Assembly (NCBI RefSeq): GCF_022394535.1
Contig: NZ_CP089414.1
Span: 1,798,001-1,862,000, forward strand
DNA length: 64,000 nucleotides
Direction of reading: 5' to 3'
Source of the DNA: Dyella terrae
GTDB taxonomy: Bacteria; Pseudomonadota; Gammaproteobacteria; Xanthomonadales; Rhodanobacteraceae
Numbering within the stretch: the stretch's first letter is position 1; each line of letters begins with the position of its first letter. Below the pieces are notes generated by a model, which did no database searches, was not told the origin of the DNA, and saw only the letters and a list, made by a program, of their open reading frames with translations. Made by a program: the position numbers and the translations under genes. Positions 4,922-20,313 of the stretch are shown one piece after another.

Positions 4922-7111
4922 TTATGGGGTGCTGGTTCCCGGCGTATCGGGGTGAAAGTCGTCGCCGGGAGGAAACGGTGCGCCACGCGACATCCATGTC
5001 TCGAACTGTTCGACCGTCATGGGCGGGCCGATATACCAGCCTTGCGCGCAATCGCAGCCTGCGTCACGCAGAAAATCCCATTGCGCCACGTTCTCCACGC
5101 CTTCCGCGAGCACCCGCATATTCATGTTGCGGGCCATGGCGACAATGGTGGACGTGAGGGTGATGGCCCTGGCGTCATCCGGCAATCCGATCAGGAAGCT
5201 GCGGTCGATCTTCAGGATTTGAATCGGGAAGCGGTTGAGATACGCCAGCGACGAATAGCCGGTGCCGAAGTCGTCGATGGCGAAGCTGAGCCCTAGCGCG
5301 CGCAGCCGCGAAAGCACATCCGACACGGCAGGCCCATGCTGAAGCAGACTGCCCTCGGTGATCTCCAGTTCGAGCAGTTGCGGAGGAAGGCCGGACGCGC
5401 CCAACGCGTCGGAAACCTGTTCATAGAGATTGACGCTGCCGAACTGTCGCGGTGAAAGGTTCACCGCCATATGCAAACCCGACCAGCCGCGCCGGACCCA
5501 TCCGGCCGCCCGATGACAGGCTTCCTGCAACACCCAATCCCCAATCGCCCCGATCAGTCCCGCTTCTTCGGCATAGGGGATGAAACGGTCCGGTGAAACC
5601 AGGCCAAAGGTATCGCTCCGCCAACGCAACAGCGCTTCGACGCCCACCACCCTACCCGTACGCAATTCAACCTGCGGCTGATAGAGCAGCGTGAACTCGT
5701 CGCGCTGGAGCGCACGGCGCAATCCCTCGCCAAGGTCGAGCAAGCCCTGTGCCTCGCTGGTCAGCGACGCACTGTAGAAGCGAAAGCGCGCCCGCCCCTC
5801 GCGTTTGGCCAACCCCAACGCCGCATCGGCGTGCTTGAGCAGCGTGGCGCCGTCGTCGCCATCGTGCGGCCAGGTGCTAATGCCGATGCTGGCACTGACG
5901 AAGATGTTCCTGCCCTGCCATGCAAAACCTTTGGCGATGACTCGCTGCATGCGTTCAGCAGCAGCCGTGATGGCGGTGGTATCCAGTGTCCCAAGCAAGG
6001 TAACAGCAAGGATGTCGCCATCGAGCCGCGCCACGGTGTGCGTCTGCTCGATACCGGAAAGACGATCCGCCATGTCTTTGATCAACTGATCGCCCACCTC
6101 ATGTCCCACGCTTTCATTGACGCGCTTGAAATGGTCCAGGCCGATCAGGAACAGCGCCAGGCGCGCCCCCTCTCTCTGCCTGATCGCATGATCGATGCGG
6201 TCAACGAGCAGCGCACGGTTGGGCAATCGCGTGAGCGGATCGTGGTAGGCGAGAAAACCCAGGTCCTTGGTGCGGCGCTCCACCGCTCGGCGCAGGGCGA
6301 GCACCCAGATGGCAAGCGCAATACCCGCCGCGCCTGCAACAGCTAGCGCATAGGCGAAGATCTGCGTGTACGGTGTGAAGTTGACGGGATTCCCCATCCA
6401 TTTGCGCCGAAGCGCGTCGCGCTCTTCGCTGGTGATGAGCCGCATGCCGTTGTCGACCAGCGCAAGGGTGGCAAGATTGCCCTTGCGTACGCCCCGATGG
6501 AACTCGCTCGAATAGAACTCGAATGCGTGGCTGAAATCCGCACCCGCGCTATTTTTGTAGAGGTAGTAGTTGGCGGGATAGTCATCCATGCACAGGATAC
6601 GGACGTCGCGCTGGTGCACGGCGTCGATCATCGCGTTGTAATCGCGATACAGCTTTAGTGCGGTGATCCCATGCTGCTTCAGGTGCTCAATACAGGCGTC
6701 GCCACGCTCCACGCCGACCTCGAAGCCGCGTAGTGCATCCACGTCGTCAATACCGGAGATGGACGTATCGACATAGATGCCCACGGTCACCTTCGCGTAG
6801 GGCGCGGAGAAGTCATAGAGCGGCTCCCGTTCCGGCGTCCGGAACAGCATATCGATCACGTCGGCCTGCCCGTCCAACAGCATGTGCTGGGCATTGGCCC
6901 AATCCGTTGGAACAAGTTCCACGTGGATGCCGGTCTTCTGCTCCCACAGCTTCCATTCGTCCACCAGGTAACCGCGGGGCTGATGGTCGGGCCCGATGAA
7001 CAGATAGGGCGGGTAGTTGTTGTCGCTGACGACACGAAGCGTTGCCGGCGCTGCGTGCAAGGCAGCGACCGCCACGACTGCCAACAGAAGTGCCAGCCAC
7101 GCTCTAAGCAC
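4922..7111 (-). CDS. Membrane c-di-GMP phosphodiesterase: periplasmic SBP sensor, degenerate GGDEF, EAL
   Basis: 729 aa. Signal peptide 1-21; periplasmic solute-binding (SBP_bac_3) sensor 24-245; one membrane helix about 251-273; GGDEF-like domain 285-450; EAL domain 465-715. In the GGDEF domain the signature reads D-G-D-I-L at 364-368, so cyclase activity is not expected and the domain may only bind GTP. The EAL domain keeps E492-A-L, NLSPRQF, EITEG, DDFGTGYS (613-620), KIDRSF and the late glutamate in LAEGVEN, so hydrolysis of c-di-GMP is likely. The sensor probably reads an amino acid or similar ligand. Monocistronic. Identification is strong; the ligand is unknown. Confidence 0.92.
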   Translation of the reverse strand: MLRAWLALLLAVVAVAALHAAPATLRVVSDNNYPPYLFIGPDHQPRGYLVDEWKLWEQKTGIHVELVPTDWANAQHMLLDGQADVIDMLFRTPEREPLYDFSAPYAKVTVGIYVDTSISGIDDVDALRGFEVGVERGDACIEHLKQHGITALKLYRDYNAMIDAVHQRDVRILCMDDYPANYYLYKNSAGADFSHAFEFYSSEFHRGVRKGNLATLALVDNGMRLITSEERDALRRKWMGNPVNFTPYTQIFAYALAVAGAAGIALAIWVLALRRAVERRTKDLGFLAYHDPLTRLPNRALLVDRIDHAIRQREGARLALFLIGLDHFKRVNESVGHEVGDQLIKDMADRLSGIEQTHTVARLDGDILAVTLLGTLDTTAITAAAERMQRVIAKGFAWQGRNIFVSASIGISTWPHDGDDGATLLKHADAALGLAKREGRARFRFYSASLTSEAQGLLDLGEGLRRALQRDEFTLLYQPQVELRTGRVVGVEALLRWRSDTFGLVSPDRFIPYAEEAGLIGAIGDWVLQEACHRAAGWVRRGWSGLHMAVNLSPRQFGSVNLYEQVSDALGASGLPPQLLELEITEGSLLQHGPAVSDVLSRLRALGLSFAIDDFGTGYSSLAYLNRFPIQILKIDRSFLIGLPDDARAITLTSTIVAMARNMNMRVLAEGVENVAQWDFLRDAGCDCAQGWYIGPPMTVEQFETWMSRGAPFPPGDDFHPDTPGTSTP

Positions 7112-7498: not shown

Positions 7499-10176
<2,678 letters not shown>

Positions 10177-13653: not shown

Positions 13654-14805
13654 TCAGTCATCGACAGCCTTCCACTGCCAAGTCCGCGACGCCATGTCGA
13701 ACTCGCCGTTACGCATCGATGTATGGTCGGTGCCGGAGTCCTTGGTGATGAAGGCACTGATCGATGTTGCGTAGACCGACAAGGTGACGGAATCGCCCTC
13801 CAGCACCGTACCGGCTACGTCCAACCGGGCACCCTTGGGCAATTCGAAACGCACATACTCGTTGTCGTCCATGTCGTGGGCGCGCAAGCGTGCGGCACTG
13901 ATCCCATGGCCGTTGTAGATAGCATCGATAGTCGAACCCGCGGGTATGTGTACGCCGGCCACCTCGACATCTTCTGCCAGCATGCCGTCGCCCACGCTCA
14001 CGTCGCCGTCGTGCTCGCGATACACCGAAAGGTCGCGCCCTACTCCCAACGGATAACCGGCCACGCGCTGCGCCACCGCGGGCGTACAGCTGAGGTCCCC
14101 GTGATAGCTGAACACCCCTTTGGCGCATCGCACGCCGAGCGCCAACCAGTCATGCGGCGCATCGCCAATGATGTCCACATCACCGATGCGGTAGGTGCTG
14201 AACTCGAATGTTGCATCCGTCCCCGCCGGCAAGGCGAGTTCGCCGACCACGTGATCGGCAGCCAAGGTGCAGTCCACCGTTTCCTTCTCAGACGAAGTAT
14301 CGAACCCTTGCTTGAACTTGGCTGCCGCGCACGGCAGGCCGTGAATGGCCGTGGGCCGCGTCAGTACACCCTCGGACACATAGCGGGTCGGGTTGTCTCC
14401 ACCAGTGACCGCGATCGAGAAATCACCGCGGATGGGCAACCCCAACAGCATGGTTTCCACTGGAAGCGTTCCGCCGCTCACATCATGTGGCTCCCAAGTG
14501 GACTGCACGACCGTTGATCCCGCCGGGAAATGCAGGTCGTCGTAGACCTTGGGCGACGACAGGTGATGCGTGTAATGCTGGACCACAGCCTCGCTGTAGG
14601 CCTGCTCGATGTCGCGGTGGTTGAACAGCAGCAACAGTTGGAGCGCCACAAAGAGGACGCAACATGGCAGGCCGTAACGCCAGAAACGACCATGCCGAAT
14701 GGAACGCTTGATGCCCAGCAAGGCCAGAATGATCGTCGCGGGAATGGTTACCAGCAGGGCTAACAACGCGAAGACGACGAGGTTCGACAACGACAGTGGG
14801 ACCAC
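13654..14805 (-). CDS. Hypothetical membrane-anchored protein
   Basis: 383 aa. Two membrane helices near the N-terminus (about 6-32, LVVFALLALLVTIPATIILA, and 44-62, LPCCVLFVALQLLLLF), then about 315 residues of polar, beta-rich sequence with recurring PAGST/PAGTD turns (FPAGSTVVQS, LPAGTDATFE, IPAGSTIDAI), suggesting an internal repeat of a beta-helix or jelly-roll kind. I chose GTG at 14805 (AAGGA 7 bases upstream); the longer frame to 15021 would overlap the DUF2894 gene and has a non-proteinlike start. It follows the four-gene motor operon after a 150-base gap. Function unknown. Confidence 0.7.
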   Translation of the reverse strand: MVPLSLSNLVVFALLALLVTIPATIILALLGIKRSIRHGRFWRYGLPCCVLFVALQLLLLFNHRDIEQAYSEAVVQHYTHHLSSPKVYDDLHFPAGSTVVQSTWEPHDVSGGTLPVETMLLGLPIRGDFSIAVTGGDNPTRYVSEGVLTRPTAIHGLPCAAAKFKQGFDTSSEKETVDCTLAADHVVGELALPAGTDATFEFSTYRIGDVDIIGDAPHDWLALGVRCAKGVFSYHGDLSCTPAVAQRVAGYPLGVGRDLSVYREHDGDVSVGDGMLAEDVEVAGVHIPAGSTIDAIYNGHGISAARLRAHDMDDNEYVRFELPKGARLDVAGTVLEGDSVTLSVYATSISAFITKDSGTDHTSMRNGEFDMASRTWQWKAVDD

Positions 14806-14956
14806 GGCAATTCCTTGGCAAATGTCGGTATGCCAGCGAAACAGCCTGCTGGCGAAGCCATGCCATCCGGCACCGGCCCAGCATATCAAGCTGCCCCGGT
14901 TAAGCGGCAGCGCCGTTGGCCGGGCTGGAGGGGAAAGCGCCGAGCGTGCGGCGACC

Positions 14957-15604
14957 TTACTCCTTGCGCGTGCGTGCCTTAGCCCGTGTGCGCTTGCCCG
15001 GGGACGCCGCCTGCGGCGCATCCTTCGCGACGAACGATGCGTTGCCGTTCATCTGCTCGATCCACGACAGGTCGTCGATATAAGCCAGAAAGTGCTGCAG
15101 GTAGCCGGGTGACAGCTCGCGCATCAAAGCGATGGTGCGATGGACGAGCGCACGCGAATTGAGTGGACCGGCGTTCTCCGGCGCATCTTCCATCGATTGG
15201 CGAAGCTGGCTCTCCGTGCGCACCGACGACCAGATCTTGCGGAACTCACCCAGCAGTTCCATCTCAGGCATGGCGGATGTCGCTGGCTCGGTAGCAGGCT
15301 TCTCGTTGCGTGACGCCGCCATGCGGGCGAGCTGATCGATCAGTTCACCGAAAGGACCTCGCTCCGCGATGTCGGATACCGCATCGTTGCTGGCACTCAC
15401 CGCCGAAGGAATGAGATCGGCGGCATACGCGTCGATCAAGACGGCCAAGCGTGCGTCCAGCAGTCCGCGTGCTTCACCATCGATCCGGGCGGCACGCTTC
15501 TCCAGCGCATCCATGAAATGGAACCGGATGGGATCGAGACGATCTGCCTGTCGCGCGCGCCAAGCATCGAGCGTCGCGCGTGCGCTGGGCGTTCCGTCAG
15601 TCAT
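14957..15604 (-). CDS. DUF2894-type protein, last gene of the motor-like operon
   Basis: 215 aa, cytosolic, helical, ending in a strongly basic tail (KRTRAKARTRKE). Resembles DUF2894 proteins, which I recall from Xanthomonadales and Burkholderiales operons beside DUF802 and OmpA-like genes. It overlaps the OmpA-like gene by 8 bases, so translation is coupled and the stoichiometry is probably tied to the membrane complex. There is an LSPGYLQHFLAYIDDLSW segment near residue 165. The biochemical role is unknown; an adaptor on the cytosolic face is a guess. Confidence 0.8.
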   Translation of the reverse strand: MTDGTPSARATLDAWRARQADRLDPIRFHFMDALEKRAARIDGEARGLLDARLAVLIDAYAADLIPSAVSASNDAVSDIAERGPFGELIDQLARMAASRNEKPATEPATSAMPEMELLGEFRKIWSSVRTESQLRQSMEDAPENAGPLNSRALVHRTIALMRELSPGYLQHFLAYIDDLSWIEQMNGNASFVAKDAPQAASPGKRTRAKARTRKE

Positions 15605-16244
15605 GAGACGCTACGGCCGTATTCGACGGCCGCGGCACAGGCGCGATCTCCACGCGACGGTTCTTTGCGCGCCCATCCTCGTTTTCGTTTGAACTCACTG
15701 GCTGCTCCGCGCCGAAGGCGGCAGCGAAGACGGAAGAAGCAGGCACGCCTTCAGTAATCAGCGTACGGGTAACCGTGAGCGCGCGCTCGGCGGACAACTC
15801 CAGGTTGTCGGCGAAGTGACGATTGCCGTCACGCACTTGCTGGTCGTCGGTGAAGCCGCTCACCATCAGAATTTCATCGCGGGACTTGAGGTAATCCGTC
15901 AGCGGCCCAGCCAGGCTTTTCAGCAGCTCGCGCCCTTCCGGTTGCAACTGGTCGGAATTGAGCGCGAACAGCACGTTGCCGCGAATACCGATGCGCCCAT
16001 CGACCAGCGTCACGCGGCCGGCCGCCAGCGGCGCGGCCAGCGCCTGCTCCAGCGTCTTGCGGCGCTGTGCTTCAGCCTGGTGTTGCTTCACCTCTTCGTC
16101 GAGCCGGTTGGACAACTGCAGTTGCACGCCGATCACGCCGACCAGAATCAGCACGAACGCGCCCAGCAGTACCGACATCAAGTCGCCGAACGCGGCCCAG
16201 ATCGGCGCGGTCGATTCCGCTTCGACCTCGAACTCGTCACTCAT
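15597..16244 (-). CDS. MotB/ZorB-like OmpA-family protein
   Basis: 215 aa. Short cytosolic N-terminus, one membrane helix (about 16-42) that carries Asp21 in WAAFGDLMSVLLGAF, the position of the ion-binding aspartate of MotB and ZorB, a short linker, and a C-terminal OmpA peptidoglycan-binding domain (about 85-200) with VSGFTDDQ, LELSAERAL and GRAKNRRVEI. This is the stator-subunit layout. It starts in a 4-base ATGA overlap with the end of the MotA-like gene and overlaps the DUF2894 gene, so all three are coupled. Likely partner of the upstream channel protein. The family call is firm; the ion and output are not known. Confidence 0.9.
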   Translation of the reverse strand: MSDEFEVEAESTAPIWAAFGDLMSVLLGAFVLILVGVIGVQLQLSNRLDEEVKQHQAEAQRRKTLEQALAAPLAAGRVTLVDGRIGIRGNVLFALNSDQLQPEGRELLKSLAGPLTDYLKSRDEILMVSGFTDDQQVRDGNRHFADNLELSAERALTVTRTLITEGVPASSVFAAAFGAEQPVSSNENEDGRAKNRRVEIAPVPRPSNTAVASHD

Positions 16245-18646
16245 GCGTTTTCAGCCCCGGCCGTTGCGCGCTGATCGGCAATCTGCCGCAGGTCTTCGAT
16301 CACCTGCTTCTGCGAAAGCATGCTGAGGTCGACCACTTCACGCGCCTGGGCCACGTAGTACGCCAGTTGCTCGTCGCTACGCGCCAACGTCTTGTCCAAC
16401 GCGTCGGCGATGTGCTGCAGGCGTTCCATCAGCGCTTCGTTCGACTGGCCGTACAACTGCACCGACACCCCAAAAGCTTCGCCAAGGCTGGCCACTTCCA
16501 CCGCGCTGCCCGTGACCTGCGCCGCCACCGTACCGAGCTTGCCGGTTTCGGCTTGGATATGGTCGGTGAAGCGGGTGCTCACGCGATCGAGCAGGTCGGC
16601 CGAGGTGGCGACCAGCGCATCGACCGCTTCACGCTGTTCCGTCGACGCGTGGTTCACAGCGTCAAGCAGGGTTTCCAGTGTGGCGAGCAGACGGCTGCGC
16701 TCTTCCAGCATCGCCGTGTCGCGCACCATGCTGTCGGAAAGCTTCTGGCGCAGCTCGGCGACGACGTCGGCGGCCGCCTTCGGCGCTTCCGACGCAGCCT
16801 GCACGAGGCGGGAGATCTCTGCGATGGTTTCGCTGGCGTGCGTCTGTGCCTGTGCGGAGATGTCGCCGGCGGTCTTGGCCAACGTGTCGCAGATGTCCTG
16901 CTGACGGCGGGTGGCGTGTTCGCCCACCTGCTCCCATTGCTGGCCCAGGGTGGCGGTCATCGATTCGAACGATGTCGTCCACGTCGCCAATCGCTGCTCG
17001 TCGCGCGACTCCAGCGCTGTCTGCAACTCCGCATGCGAGGCCTGCACGACGCGCACCAGCGACGACGCCTGCGCTTCGAAGGATGCCGTAGCCGTGGCCA
17101 ATGCTTTTTCGTTGCGGGCCGCCAAGCCGTCGTTCGCTGCAGCCTGCTGCGACAGTGCGTTGTTCCATGCCGTTGCCGCGTGGCCGGCCGAGGCATCCAG
17201 GCGTGCAGCGACACTGTCCAACAGGCCGGTCGAACGCTGCTCGAAGGTTTCGCCGAAGCGCTCCAGCGACTGGCGCAGATCGCCGGCCATGGATTCGTTG
17301 GAGCGGCGATGTTCGTCCAGCGCCTTGCTCCAGAGTTCCGCCACCGTTGCGGTACTGGTCTCGAAGCCGGTGGACAGGCCATCCAATTGCTCGCGTACGG
17401 CCTGCGTGACGGATGCATGCAACGTGGCCGCTTCGCGCGCGAGCCCAGCCATCGTCGCCTCTACCACCGGTTGCAACAAGGCGCCGGAAGCGCGCGCGCT
17501 TTCGGTGACGCTGTCCTTCAACGACTGCTCCACCGACGTAGCGAGATGCGTATAGGTCGCCTCGGCCCGCGCATGGAAGGCTTCGTGACTGGCGAGCTGC
17601 TGCTCGGTCGCGGTCAGGTTCTGCTGCCACAGGGCGCCGGACACGCGTGCACTTTCGGCCACGCTGTCCTTCAACGACTGCTCCACTGAGGAGGCGAGCT
17701 GCGTGTACGCGGCCTCGGTGCGGGTGTGGAACGCGCCATGGCTGGCGAGCTGGTGCTCGTTGGCGGCCAAGCCTTGCTGCAGCATGGAGGTGGCAGCGCG
17801 CGCGCTTTCGGCCACGCTCTCCTTCAAGGATTGCTGCACGGAGGCGGCAAGATGCGTATAGGCCGCTTCGGTGCGCGCGTGGAACGCTTCCTGACCCGCG
17901 AGCTGGCGCTCGTTCGTCACGGTGCCATGTTGTTCGAGGGCGATCATCAGCGCCTGCAGGCGATCGACCAGGGTCGGCATCAGCGCCGTCTGCTGTTGCA
18001 GGAGCTTGAATGCTTCGTCGCGCTGGTGCGCCTGCGAATGCACGCGCAAGCTGGTGGCAATCCTGGCGTCCAGTTGCTGCACGGCGTGCAGGCGCTCGCG
18101 CCGGCACAGTGCGGAAAGCAGGCCGAGCATGGCCGATGTCGCCACGCCCGCAATCGAAGTGCCGAACGCAAAGCCCAGGCCCTTGACCGGCGCGGCGAGC
18201 GAACCGCGAATAGCTTGCAGGTCAGTCGCGCTTTCCAGCGCGAGGCCGGTGCCGCGCAAGGTCGCCATCATGCCGAGCAGCGTGCCCAGCATGCCCAGCA
18301 GCACGAGCAGGCCGACCAGATACGGCGTCAAGGCTGGCGCGGGCATGGCCACGCGCTCGCCTTCCACGCGCAGGCGCACGGCGTGACGCAGGCTGGGATG
18401 CAAGCGGGCAAGCCAATCGCCCAGGCCTTCCGGCGCCACAGGGGCATCCACCAGGGCATGCGTCAGCGTGGCGGTTGCCTGCCGGTAGCGGTGCAGCTCC
18501 AGCGCGCCGGCCACGTAACAGGCACCGATCACCGCCGCGATCGCCGCACCCAGCGGGTTCGAACCGATGTAGCCCACGCCGATCCAGCACACGGCCACCA
18601 GGCCCACAGCGAACACAGCAAGATTAAGCAGATTCTTCAACGTCAC
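16241..18646 (-). CDS. MotA/ZorA-like channel protein with long coiled-coil tail (DUF802)
   Basis: 801 aa. Four membrane helices at about 5-28, 31-51, 108-130 and 157-180. The third and fourth have the MotA/TolQ/ExbB pattern (LLGMLGTLLGMMATL; FGTSIAGVATSAMLGLLS). Residues 181-801 are an extended helical coiled coil rich in Ala, Gln, Glu and Ser, including three tandem 51-residue repeats (248-400). This is the design of ZorA, in which a long tail hangs from a five-fold motor into the cytosol. GTG at 18646 follows the upstream stop by 7 bases; a TTG at 18640 is an alternative. Matches DUF802 as I remember it. Function unproven. Confidence 0.88.
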   Translation of the reverse strand: MTLKNLLNLAVFAVGLVAVCWIGVGYIGSNPLGAAIAAVIGACYVAGALELHRYRQATATLTHALVDAPVAPEGLGDWLARLHPSLRHAVRLRVEGERVAMPAPALTPYLVGLLVLLGMLGTLLGMMATLRGTGLALESATDLQAIRGSLAAPVKGLGFAFGTSIAGVATSAMLGLLSALCRRERLHAVQQLDARIATSLRVHSQAHQRDEAFKLLQQQTALMPTLVDRLQALMIALEQHGTVTNERQLAGQEAFHARTEAAYTHLAASVQQSLKESVAESARAATSMLQQGLAANEHQLASHGAFHTRTEAAYTQLASSVEQSLKDSVAESARVSGALWQQNLTATEQQLASHEAFHARAEATYTHLATSVEQSLKDSVTESARASGALLQPVVEATMAGLAREAATLHASVTQAVREQLDGLSTGFETSTATVAELWSKALDEHRRSNESMAGDLRQSLERFGETFEQRSTGLLDSVAARLDASAGHAATAWNNALSQQAAANDGLAARNEKALATATASFEAQASSLVRVVQASHAELQTALESRDEQRLATWTTSFESMTATLGQQWEQVGEHATRRQQDICDTLAKTAGDISAQAQTHASETIAEISRLVQAASEAPKAAADVVAELRQKLSDSMVRDTAMLEERSRLLATLETLLDAVNHASTEQREAVDALVATSADLLDRVSTRFTDHIQAETGKLGTVAAQVTGSAVEVASLGEAFGVSVQLYGQSNEALMERLQHIADALDKTLARSDEQLAYYVAQAREVVDLSMLSQKQVIEDLRQIADQRATAGAENA
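17447..17905 (-). repeat. Three 153-bp tandem repeats coding for the coiled-coil tail
   Basis: Three in-frame units of 51 codons, each starting QLA and containing EA(A/T)YT(H/Q)LA and SLK(E/D)SV(A/T)ESAR. Protein identity between neighbouring units is high, so recent duplication or gene conversion is likely. Expansion would change tail length in steps of one unit. Confidence 0.85.
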
Positions 18647-18653
18647 TTCTCGG

Positions 18654-19361
18654 TTAGCGGGTGCGAAGGGCTGCCAGCAGGCCTTCGACCGGTTGAAAAC
18701 GAACATCCAGTTCAGCGAGCAAAACGCTCTGCACGTCCTTGCGAAAACCATCGAGCCAGGGAGCAGGCGTTGCGGATGCCGCCTCCCCTTCCGCCGCTTC
18801 GGACGGCGCGCTCTGGCGCAACCGCTCGAAGTGCTCGCCCAGCAACGCCGGCACAGCCGCCAGCAACATCTGCTCGCGCGGACTCAGTGCGAGCTCCATG
18901 ACGGCATCTACGCTGGCAAGCCCCGCCAGCTCGTTCGACTGCCGGGCCAACATGTCGCGTAGCCGCCCGCGCAAATGGCCGGTGGCCGCCTGCATGCGCC
19001 GCTGCAGGGTGAGGTAGCGCTGGCGGAACACCGCGTAGTCGTCCCCCACGTTGTCGCTGCCCGCCCCATCCGCACCGATGGCCAGGACCGGATCACCGGT
19101 AATGGCCTGCACCAACGAGGCGCGCAGGCGAGTGCACTCCGCCTCTTCCTCGCTGCTGAAGGCCGGGCCGCCCGCGTCGTCCACGGATGGCCGGCCGTCC
19201 AGCGCCGTAGACAGTGCAATGGCATGCGTCCAGTCGAGCCAGTGGCTCAACCGGTCCGGCAGCGATTGCCTGGAGGCGGGTACGTCGCGATCCGTCAGGC
19301 GAGCGAGCAAGCGGATGAACGTCGGGCCACGAACCGCCGTCCGCTGAAGGGCTTGCACCAT
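18654..19361 (-). CDS. DUF3348-type protein, first gene of the motor-like operon
   Basis: 235 aa, cytosolic, helical, no signal peptide. Pattern FIRLLARLTD near the N-terminus and a QRYLTLQRRMQAATGHLRGRLRDML segment (quoted here in part as QRYLTLQRRMQ) in the middle match DUF3348 as I recall it. It opens a four-gene unit; its stop is 7 bases before the channel-protein start. The last 50 residues contain FRKDVQSVLLAELDVRFQPV, possibly a docking helix. Conservation beside DUF802 suggests a dedicated partner of the coiled-coil tail, but no activity is known. Confidence 0.8.
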   Translation of the reverse strand: MVQALQRTAVRGPTFIRLLARLTDRDVPASRQSLPDRLSHWLDWTHAIALSTALDGRPSVDDAGGPAFSSEEEAECTRLRASLVQAITGDPVLAIGADGAGSDNVGDDYAVFRQRYLTLQRRMQAATGHLRGRLRDMLARQSNELAGLASVDAVMELALSPREQMLLAAVPALLGEHFERLRQSAPSEAAEGEAASATPAPWLDGFRKDVQSVLLAELDVRFQPVEGLLAALRTR

Positions 19362-19437: not shown

Positions 19438-20313
19438 TCAGGGCGTGAGATGTGCCCGCGCCTGATCCATCACGGCCTGCCGCAGCTGCGCCAGCGCGGG
19501 CGTGGCCTCGCTGCCGCTGGCGTGCAGGCAGACGTCGACGCCAGGCAACGGGGGTAATCCATGGCGCCCGTCCAGCCGCATCAGCTGGGGTGGCACACCA
19601 GCCGTGGTCCGCAGGGTGATGCCCAGCCCCGCGGCCACCCCTGCCCACAGGCTCTGCAGGCTGCCGGTCACGTAGGCCACCCGCCACGACAGATGCGCCT
19701 TGTCCAGCGCATCCACGCCCGCCCGGCGGAAGAAGCACGGCGAGTGGTAAAGGGCGAGATCGAGCGGTGCGTCAGCCCGCAGCACCTCGTCCACACCGGC
19801 CGGCCCCAGCCATGTCATGGGCAGGGTCACCACATGCTCCGCATCCGCGCGCTGTGCATAGCCCATCACCAGGACCAGATCGAGCTCGCCGCGGTCCAGC
19901 CTTTCGAGCAGGGCCCCGTTGCGATCGACCGAAATATCGACCTGTACCGCCGGGTGGGCCTTCTTGAATTGGCCTAGCGCGGCGGGCAGCCAGGATTCGG
20001 CGAAATCGCCGGGCAAGCCAAAGCGCACCGTGCCTGCCAACGAGGCGCCCCGCACCGCGTGCACGGCTTCGTCGTTCAGTTCCAGCAGGCGGCGGGCATA
20101 GGAGTGCACCGTGTCGCCGGCCTCGGTGAGCACGATGCGGCGCCCTTGCTTGCGGAACAGCGGCTGGCCCAACTGCGCCTCCAACTTGCGCATCTGCTGG
20201 CTGACCGCGGATTGCGACCGCCCCACCCGCTCCGCCGCGCGGTTCAGGCTGCCCAGTTGCAGGATCGCAAGCAGGGATCGCAGCGCATCCATATCCAGAT
20301 TGGGTAAGGTCAT
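19438..20313 (-). CDS. LysR family regulator
   Basis: 291 aa. N-terminal winged HTH (5-65: LGSLNRAAERVGRSQSAVSQQMRKLE) and a periplasmic-binding-protein-like effector domain (90-285). It ends 76 bases before the motor operon and is transcribed in the same direction, but the spacing suggests separate control. The region upstream, where a divergent target would be expected, holds only a decayed reading frame, so the original target may have been lost. Effector unknown. Confidence 0.92.
   Translation of the reverse strand: MTLPNLDMDALRSLLAILQLGSLNRAAERVGRSQSAVSQQMRKLEAQLGQPLFRKQGRRIVLTEAGDTVHSYARRLLELNDEAVHAVRGASLAGTVRFGLPGDFAESWLPAALGQFKKAHPAVQVDISVDRNGALLERLDRGELDLVLVMGYAQRADAEHVVTLPMTWLGPAGVDEVLRADAPLDLALYHSPCFFRRAGVDALDKAHLSWRVAYVTGSLQSLWAGVAAGLGITLRTTAGVPPQLMRLDGRHGLPPLPGVDVCLHASGSEATPALAQLRQAVMDQARAHLTP

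Follow-up and report, generated by a model that had tools for sequence, protein, structure and literature searches.

The four-gene operon

The window examined here is a stretch of 64,000 nucleotides from Dyella terrae (contig NZ_CP089414.1, positions 1,798,001 to 1,862,000), and the positions below are counted from its first letter. In the open reading frame list, four minus-strand genes fill positions 14957-19361, running from a DUF3348 gene through a ZorA-like gene and a MotB/OmpA-type gene to a DUF2894 gene (Table 1). The distances between consecutive genes are +7, -4 and -8 bases, and the positions, strand, order and spacing given in a preliminary description of this DNA agree with both the list and the computed distances. 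The longest open frame at zorA starts at 18751 and encodes 836 amino acids, as opposed to 801 from the GTG start; the start may be either this GTG or the TTG two codons downstream.

Table 1. Genes and features of the operon in window coordinates.
Feature	Position	Strand	Basis
DUF3348 protein, 235 aa	18654..19361	-	Pfam PF11828 E 1.4e-84; PADLOC ZorG3 E 1.3e-89
zorA (type III), 801 aa from GTG or 799 aa from TTG	16241..18646	-	PADLOC ZorA3 1275 bits
ZorA membrane part, four predicted helices	18104..18646	-	hydropathy and alignment
Three 51-residue ZorA tail units, residues 252-404, limits approximate	17435..17893	-	repeat identity
Conserved ZorA tail tip, about residues 613-672, limits approximate	16631..16810	-	conservation
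zorB (type III), 215 aa	15597..16244	-	PADLOC ZorB3 E 6.5e-117, 386 bits
Asp21 codon of zorB, presumed ion-site aspartate	16182..16184	-	F[G/A]DLM motif
OmpA-type domain of ZorB, presumed peptidoglycan-binding	15657..15971	-	PF00691 E 1.8e-17, residues 92-196
DUF2894 protein, 215 aa	14957..15604	-	PF11445 E 3.8e-58; PADLOC ZorF3 E 3.9e-77
Basic C-terminal tail of DUF2894 protein	14960..14995	-	net charge

Pfam places the four products, in gene order, in DUF3348, DUF802 (E = 2.6e-28), OmpA and DUF2894. DUF802 is the only Pfam match of the channel protein, with none to the MotA/ExbB domain at E 1e-3, although a weaker kinship is possible. The PADLOC profiles for Zorya type III match all four products (E = 3.9e-77 to 0). 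The ZorA-like protein also matches ZorA1 (1.8e-11) and ZorA2 (1.8e-4), more weakly than ZorA3, and the MotB/OmpA protein also matches ZorB1 (7.5e-21) and ZorB2 (1e-7), cross matches that indicate kinship with Zorya types I and II. The stretch best shared with ZorA1 is short (residues 147-231), and the NCBIfam ZorA model scores the channel protein at 33.5 bits, below its 100-bit cut-off. The zorB product matches NCBIfam NF006547, a hypothetical-protein model, above cut-off.

Assignment to Zorya type III

Zorya type III was defined in 2021 by ZorA, ZorB, DUF3348 and DUF2894 (PMC8565338), a definition repeated in PMC11890865, whose work concerns types I and II. The window locus holds the identical four genes, with zorA and zorB enclosed by the two soluble genes as the type requires, and nothing sets it apart from type III; we are practically certain that the operon belongs there. 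The preliminary description had called the complex uncharacterised and suggested that it would be a new type of energy-transducing machine resembling ZorAB. The resemblance has become actual membership, given the ZorA3 and ZorB3 scores in Table 1, and the claim of novelty fails because the gene set already carries a name (PMC8565338).

The defining paper counted 6,401 gene pairs flanked by DUF3348 (there ZorF) and DUF2894 (there ZorG), and it prints the type III gene pairs as 'zorBC', probably a slip for zorAB (PMC8565338). The naming clashes with PADLOC-DB (PDLC00652-PDLC00658), where DUF3348 is ZorG and DUF2894 is ZorF. According to the same paper, the type III system of Stenotrophomonas nitritireducens makes at least one phage plate less well on E. 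coli, and the new Zorya types are distributed patchily at genus level, over several phyla and in diverse contexts; its authors take the wider distribution of type III to be patchy and mobile. They propose that ZorF and ZorG regulate ZorAB and also report an older proton-channel idea (PMC8565338). In Burkholderia cenocepacia, the first one or two Zorya III genes are reported to shift transcription upon infection, and, with a single phage, no effect was seen upon knock-down of predicted defence genes, Zorya III among them (PMC12584637). A Variovorax strain has Zorya III merely listed (PMC11953036), and the accessible parts of the literature returned by our search offered no mechanism for the type.

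With Zorya types I and II, the window operon has in common the ZorAB core with its aspartate, the OmpA-type domain and the long ZorA tail. In those types, 5:2 structures of ZorAB are reported, along with a need for the aspartate of ZorB, for peptidoglycan binding and for the tail of ZorA, and both the type II nickase ZorE and the type I ZorCD pair are reported as recruited to ZorAB (PMC11890865). Whereas types I and II carry ZorC and ZorD, or ZorE, the window operon instead has two proteins in which neither Pfam nor PADLOC recognises an enzyme domain. ZorC, ZorD and ZorE are absent from the operon, and the nearest neighbours (13654-15021 and 19438-20313) match no PADLOC model. The preliminary description is right that no recognisable helicase or nuclease gene is present, which agrees with the published composition of the type. 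A search for EH_Signature (ZorC) gave 0 of 20 genus genomes, but it also gave no signal in any control.

Membrane core

As in MotAB and ExbBD/TolQR, a four-helix channel protein is paired with a single-helix partner carrying an aspartate, and ZorB has a MotB-like OmpA domain and matches solved MotB chains. Residues 10-65 match chain 8vvn_B, named as a MotB-related protein, weakly (E = 4.9e-4). Unlike these stator systems, the window channel has a tail of about 620 residues and two extra soluble partners. By hydropathy, the membrane stretches of ZorA lie at about residues 1-29, 31-52, 99-132 and 159-181, and ZorB has a single hydrophobic region at about 13-48 that contains Asp21; hydropathy gave no membrane stretch in the DUF3348 and DUF2894 proteins. 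The four helices and long tail of the channel, and the aspartate and OmpA domain of its partner, had been proposed from the sequence beforehand and are upheld by hydropathy, by the helical periodicity of the tail and by PF00691. In the alignment, T122, T163 and S164 of ZorA are invariant in 106 of 106 sequences, and Asp21 lies within F[G/A]DLM in all 108 distinct ZorB sequences. By kinship with types I and II (PMC11890865), ZorAB should be a 5:2 ion-driven motor that senses disturbed peptidoglycan, and these conserved residues fit such a motor.

A modular shaft and a conserved tip in the ZorA tail

Tail length was taken as the distance between two fixed motifs in 107 ZorA sequences, two of which were dropped (one in the wrong frame, one with a variant motif). 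This distance is identical, at 485 residues, in 53 of the 105 distinct sequences. The other tails show 23 distinct length differences, from -73 to +261, with +87 occurring in 14 sequences, +102 in six (the window ZorA and five others), +51 in three, +174 in two and +261 in one. The 23 differences share a period of 3.64 residues with a mean cosine of 0.776, which was equalled by none of 20,000 sets in which each amount was shifted by up to five residues; since the sequences are related by descent, only distinct amounts entered this test. Measured independently of the length differences, the hydrophobic pattern of the tail peaks at the identical period of 3.64, as would be the case for a near-straight helical bundle.

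Length changes of at least four residues fall at about positions 284-500 in 11 sequences aligned to the ZorA of locus L022, and the shaft varies in modules of 51, 87, 174 and 261 residues. Compared with L022, the window tail has 102 extra residues, amounting to two 51-residue units beyond the commonest length. Its units are identical to one another at 31-34 of 51 positions, and their limits are approximate because the repeats can be framed several ways. In three Burkholderiales loci (L160, L186 and L183), ZorA has 785, 872 and 959 amino acids, equal to a 698-amino-acid form plus one, two and three times 87 residues, with all the insertions at one place.

Beyond the shaft, L022 blocks 510-569 and 650-669 reach roughly the conservation of the membrane core. 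In the 51 sequences of the commonest tail length, mean conservation of the tip is 0.82-0.85 (L022 blocks 510, 530 and 550) as opposed to 0.52-0.69 for the shaft. Judging from its sequence, the tail resembles an uninterrupted helical bundle in which the shaft may vary by whole turns with the tip sequence held constant. Any coiled coil would be expected to keep its phase, and the informative part of the pattern is the conserved tip together with the repeat-wise shaft. We found no prior description of this rod pattern or of the distribution reported below in the accessible parts of the type III literature, where the tail repeats themselves were searched for only narrowly.

All four tabulated tails that are shorter by at least 40 residues accompany an N-terminally short DUF2894 protein, a form seen in seven of the 102 DUF2894 proteins in the table, all from Luteibacter or genus g11. 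The same form also goes with two long tails and one of normal length, and the whole group comes from a single lineage. A fifth short tail (L063) lacks the motif used and was left uncounted. These data hint that short tails co-vary with N-terminally short DUF2894.

The soluble partners

The model of the DUF3348 protein, built from 60 sequences, is all helices with no strand (mean pLDDT 80, pTM 0.77). That of the DUF2894 protein is weak (pLDDT 61, pTM 0.36), with helices and a low-confidence end. The most conserved part of DUF2894 is a C-terminal core (GPLNS, SPxYL), which is kept in the Luteibacter proteins that have no N-terminal part, and its last 16 residues have a net charge of at least +4 in 104 of 108 distinct sequences. 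No clear solved relative was found by sequence for either protein.

Linkage and distribution

Of 398 genomes of the phylum, 19 have DUF3348 above its cut-off, and these 19 also give strong DUF2894 matches, each time with both genes on a single contig. The DUF3348 search left one weaker row (E = 4e-4) below the cut-off; the DUF2894 search gave one extra row at the cut-off (E = 7e-5, with an internal stop) and two below it. Among the 20 genus genomes, DUF3348 is present in 18, in exactly one copy each, and DUF2894 in 19, the extra one lying at a contig edge in an 86%-complete genome. At family level the operon occurs in 54 of 147 genomes and 14 of 26 genera. In the control set, the genome of Corynebacterium glutamicum gave a DUF2894 match above cut-off, an actinobacterium far outside the remaining range.

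The four genes stand in order at 57 of 58 genus and family loci, and the 58th ends at a contig edge; this set includes 40 of 42 family hits from outside the genus, with G152 and G154 left out. In a second collection, comprising the best 80 of 311 loci and overlapping the first in species, all four are intact at 76 of 80 and the other four loci run off contig ends. Both sets were found through DUF3348, except for one locus of the first found through DUF2894. This recurrence of one gene order places the arrangement far beyond chance. The preliminary description had taken homologues lacking the OmpA partner as evidence against itself, and none occur among the loci uncut by contig ends.

Named hosts among the best 80 of 311 loci are Xanthomonadales, Burkholderiales and one metagenome bin labelled Acidobacteriaceae, to which plasmid records with operon genes add Cupriavidus, Variovorax, Azoarcus and Aquabacterium. 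Out of 72,556 plasmids, 26 match DUF3348 and 27 match ZorB, all of at least 366 kb. There was no match in 50,697 phage records, and a two-pattern scan of viral contigs gave none that was confirmed. For comparison, the type I restriction gene hsdR, a classical defence gene, is found in four of the 20 genus genomes above cut-off and in eight at E 1e-3. One of them, G006, has two hsdR matches with identical scores far apart on one chromosome, as if duplicated. The operon is near-core and single-copy in the genus, and the family-level counts agree with a patchy distribution.

Neighbourhood, descent and selection

The catalase-peroxidase gene katG (7499-9811, minus strand) served as a single-copy neighbour for flank control. 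In the window genome, G007 and G015 it is close to the operon, in G005 and G019 some 70-85 kb distant, and in G009, G016 and G017 the katG match is interrupted by a single stop. G010, the sole complete genus genome without DUF3348 and DUF2894, also gave no katG match at E 1e-100. The flanks of the operon mostly differ from one species of the genus to another: among 120 genome pairs, a flanking frame is shared in 21 for the operon (6 on both sides) and in 34 for katG (23 on both sides).

Horizontal spread within the genus was considered as the cause of these shifting flanks and was dropped, since the gyrB and rpoB trees conflict with each other at least as much as the Zorya and rpoB trees do: each pair shares 4 of 15 splits, and in each pair either topology is rejected by the other's data. 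The Zorya and gyrB trees share 7 of 15 splits, and the Zorya data reject the gyrB tree. We read the history of the operon in the genus, as far as trees and flanks indicate, as probably mostly vertical descent with relocation, with exchange possible. The operon genes are under purifying selection there (median dN/dS 0.11-0.36), with a median of 0.112 for ZorB and 0.119 for gyrB. For the closest pairs, the operon genes have synonymous distances close to those of gyrB, and for wider pairs distances up to about 3.5 times as large, as with DUF2894 between G005 and G019 (1.07, against 0.30 for gyrB).

A defence island around the operon was also considered. From 37 chosen loci, 147 flanking frames were picked by length, without a gene caller, and 133 were scanned with PADLOC at 1e-10, leaving out two frames of L052 and 12 from three loci whose flanks are the same as in a listed relative. 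Five families were matched (mad3, C3a186, C3a206, a homing endonuclease and a CARF fusion) with one member each, hence at most five frames. In the control, 48 of 64 katG-flanking frames were scanned, with four loci omitted as near repeats, and the sole match came from a katG region that extends into the operon and was DUF2894 itself. At most 5 of 133 against otherwise 0 of 48 is too small a difference, and the island was dropped.

A LysR-type regulator gene (19438-20313, minus strand) lies 76 bases upstream of the operon in the same direction. A close copy (71%) adjoins the operon only in L034 among the 58 loci, so the gene is probably outside the system. The N-terminal part of a GGDEF-EAL protein, also encoded in the window (4922-7111, minus strand), is similar to a periplasmic substrate-binding protein, with a match to a cystine-binding model at E = 3.1e-12.

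Proposed mechanism and alternatives

We consider it highly probable that the operon is an anti-phage Zorya type III system comprising an ion-driven ZorAB motor, a rod and two soluble partners. The gene identities, their linkage, the conserved ion site, the helical tail with its conserved tip and the basic DUF2894 tail are the observations behind this view, and the working steps follow types I and II. Five ZorA and two ZorB would form a rotary motor in the inner membrane; an infecting phage would disturb the envelope, upon which ZorB would grip the peptidoglycan, and ion flow past Asp21 would turn ZorA with its long cytosolic rod. The rod may be where both soluble proteins act, with DUF3348 serving as a helical adaptor and DUF2894 as an output arm, and either might be the one that touches it. 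The basic tail of DUF2894, probably disordered, could bind nucleic acid near the entry site, and phage DNA might then be held or a host nuclease brought in. Since Pfam and PADLOC recognise no nuclease, the type III output itself is probably something else. That DUF2894 engages nucleic acid as the output step is a tentative suggestion, which we rate as possible rather than probable; given the poor DUF2894 model, the tail could instead serve an RNA, membrane or protein partner. Against an anti-phage role as a whole stand the near-core status of the operon in the genus, which is untypical of defence genes, and the lack of a knock-down effect in B. cenocepacia with one phage (PMC12584637).

A further reading, which we offer as speculation with a small chance of being right, is that type III is a lineage-resident, nuclease-free mechanical machine for immunity or envelope guarding that would stop entry by force instead of cutting. 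The tip of the rod would stay constant, shaft modules of whole helical turns would set the distance or torsion between membrane and tip, and the basic tail of DUF2894 would take hold of the entering DNA where the turning rod ends.

The channel itself could instead be the effector, with DUF3348 and DUF2894 holding it shut until a phage arrives, so that infected cells lose their membrane potential. The absence of both a Pfam- or PADLOC-recognised enzyme domain and a clear solved relative in the two soluble proteins is consistent with such a gated leak, as are the invariant ion site and the published proposal that ZorF and ZorG regulate ZorAB, which comes with mention of a proton channel (PMC8565338). 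However, recruitment of ZorE in type II and of ZorCD in type I to ZorAB argues against it by kinship (PMC11890865), and the conserved tip and basic tail would have no evident role, leaving this explanation rather unlikely.

It is also possible, but in our judgement unlikely, that the operon mainly serves an envelope or stress function kept by nearly every species of the lineage, and that overexpression produces the phage protection in E. coli as a by-product. One copy in 18 of 20 genus genomes, as opposed to 4 (or 8 at E 1e-3) for hsdR, is what such a function would give. The few flanking frames that match PADLOC (at most 5 of 133), the lack of a match in phage records or a confirmed one on viral contigs, the large size of all matching plasmids, a ZorB as constrained as gyrB, and the closer agreement of the gyrB tree with the Zorya tree (7 of 15 splits in common) than with the rpoB tree (4 of 15) point the same way. 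On the other hand, the operon is dispensable on a wider scale, carried by no more than 54 of 147 genomes in the family and 19 of 398 in the phylum, and its flanks shift more than those of katG (21 against 34 of 120 pairs; 6 against 23 on both sides). A patchy distribution, diverse contexts and measured phage protection have also been reported (PMC8565338). A new and unrelated stator-like machine that merely resembles ZorAB was dropped as extremely improbable, because the short ZorA1 match and the low NCBIfam ZorA score are set against type III profile matches for all four genes, ZorB1 and ZorB2 matches for ZorB, and a gene set already in print (PMC8565338).

Significance

The observation on this locus is correct, and as first described it holds little surprise because the system was already known. 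What is added here is the linkage, the near-core distribution in the genus, the modular tail, the all-helical model of DUF3348 and the basic tail of DUF2894. For types I and II, the reported mode of action relies on recruited nucleases (PMC11890865), and type III, in which Pfam and PADLOC recognise no such enzyme, is the odd case that could reveal what the ZorAB motor contributes alone. The natural tail lengths, modular and phase-keeping, are ready-made test pieces for telling rod length from rod twist as the signal, and near-core status in one genus gives reason to consider a role beyond phage.
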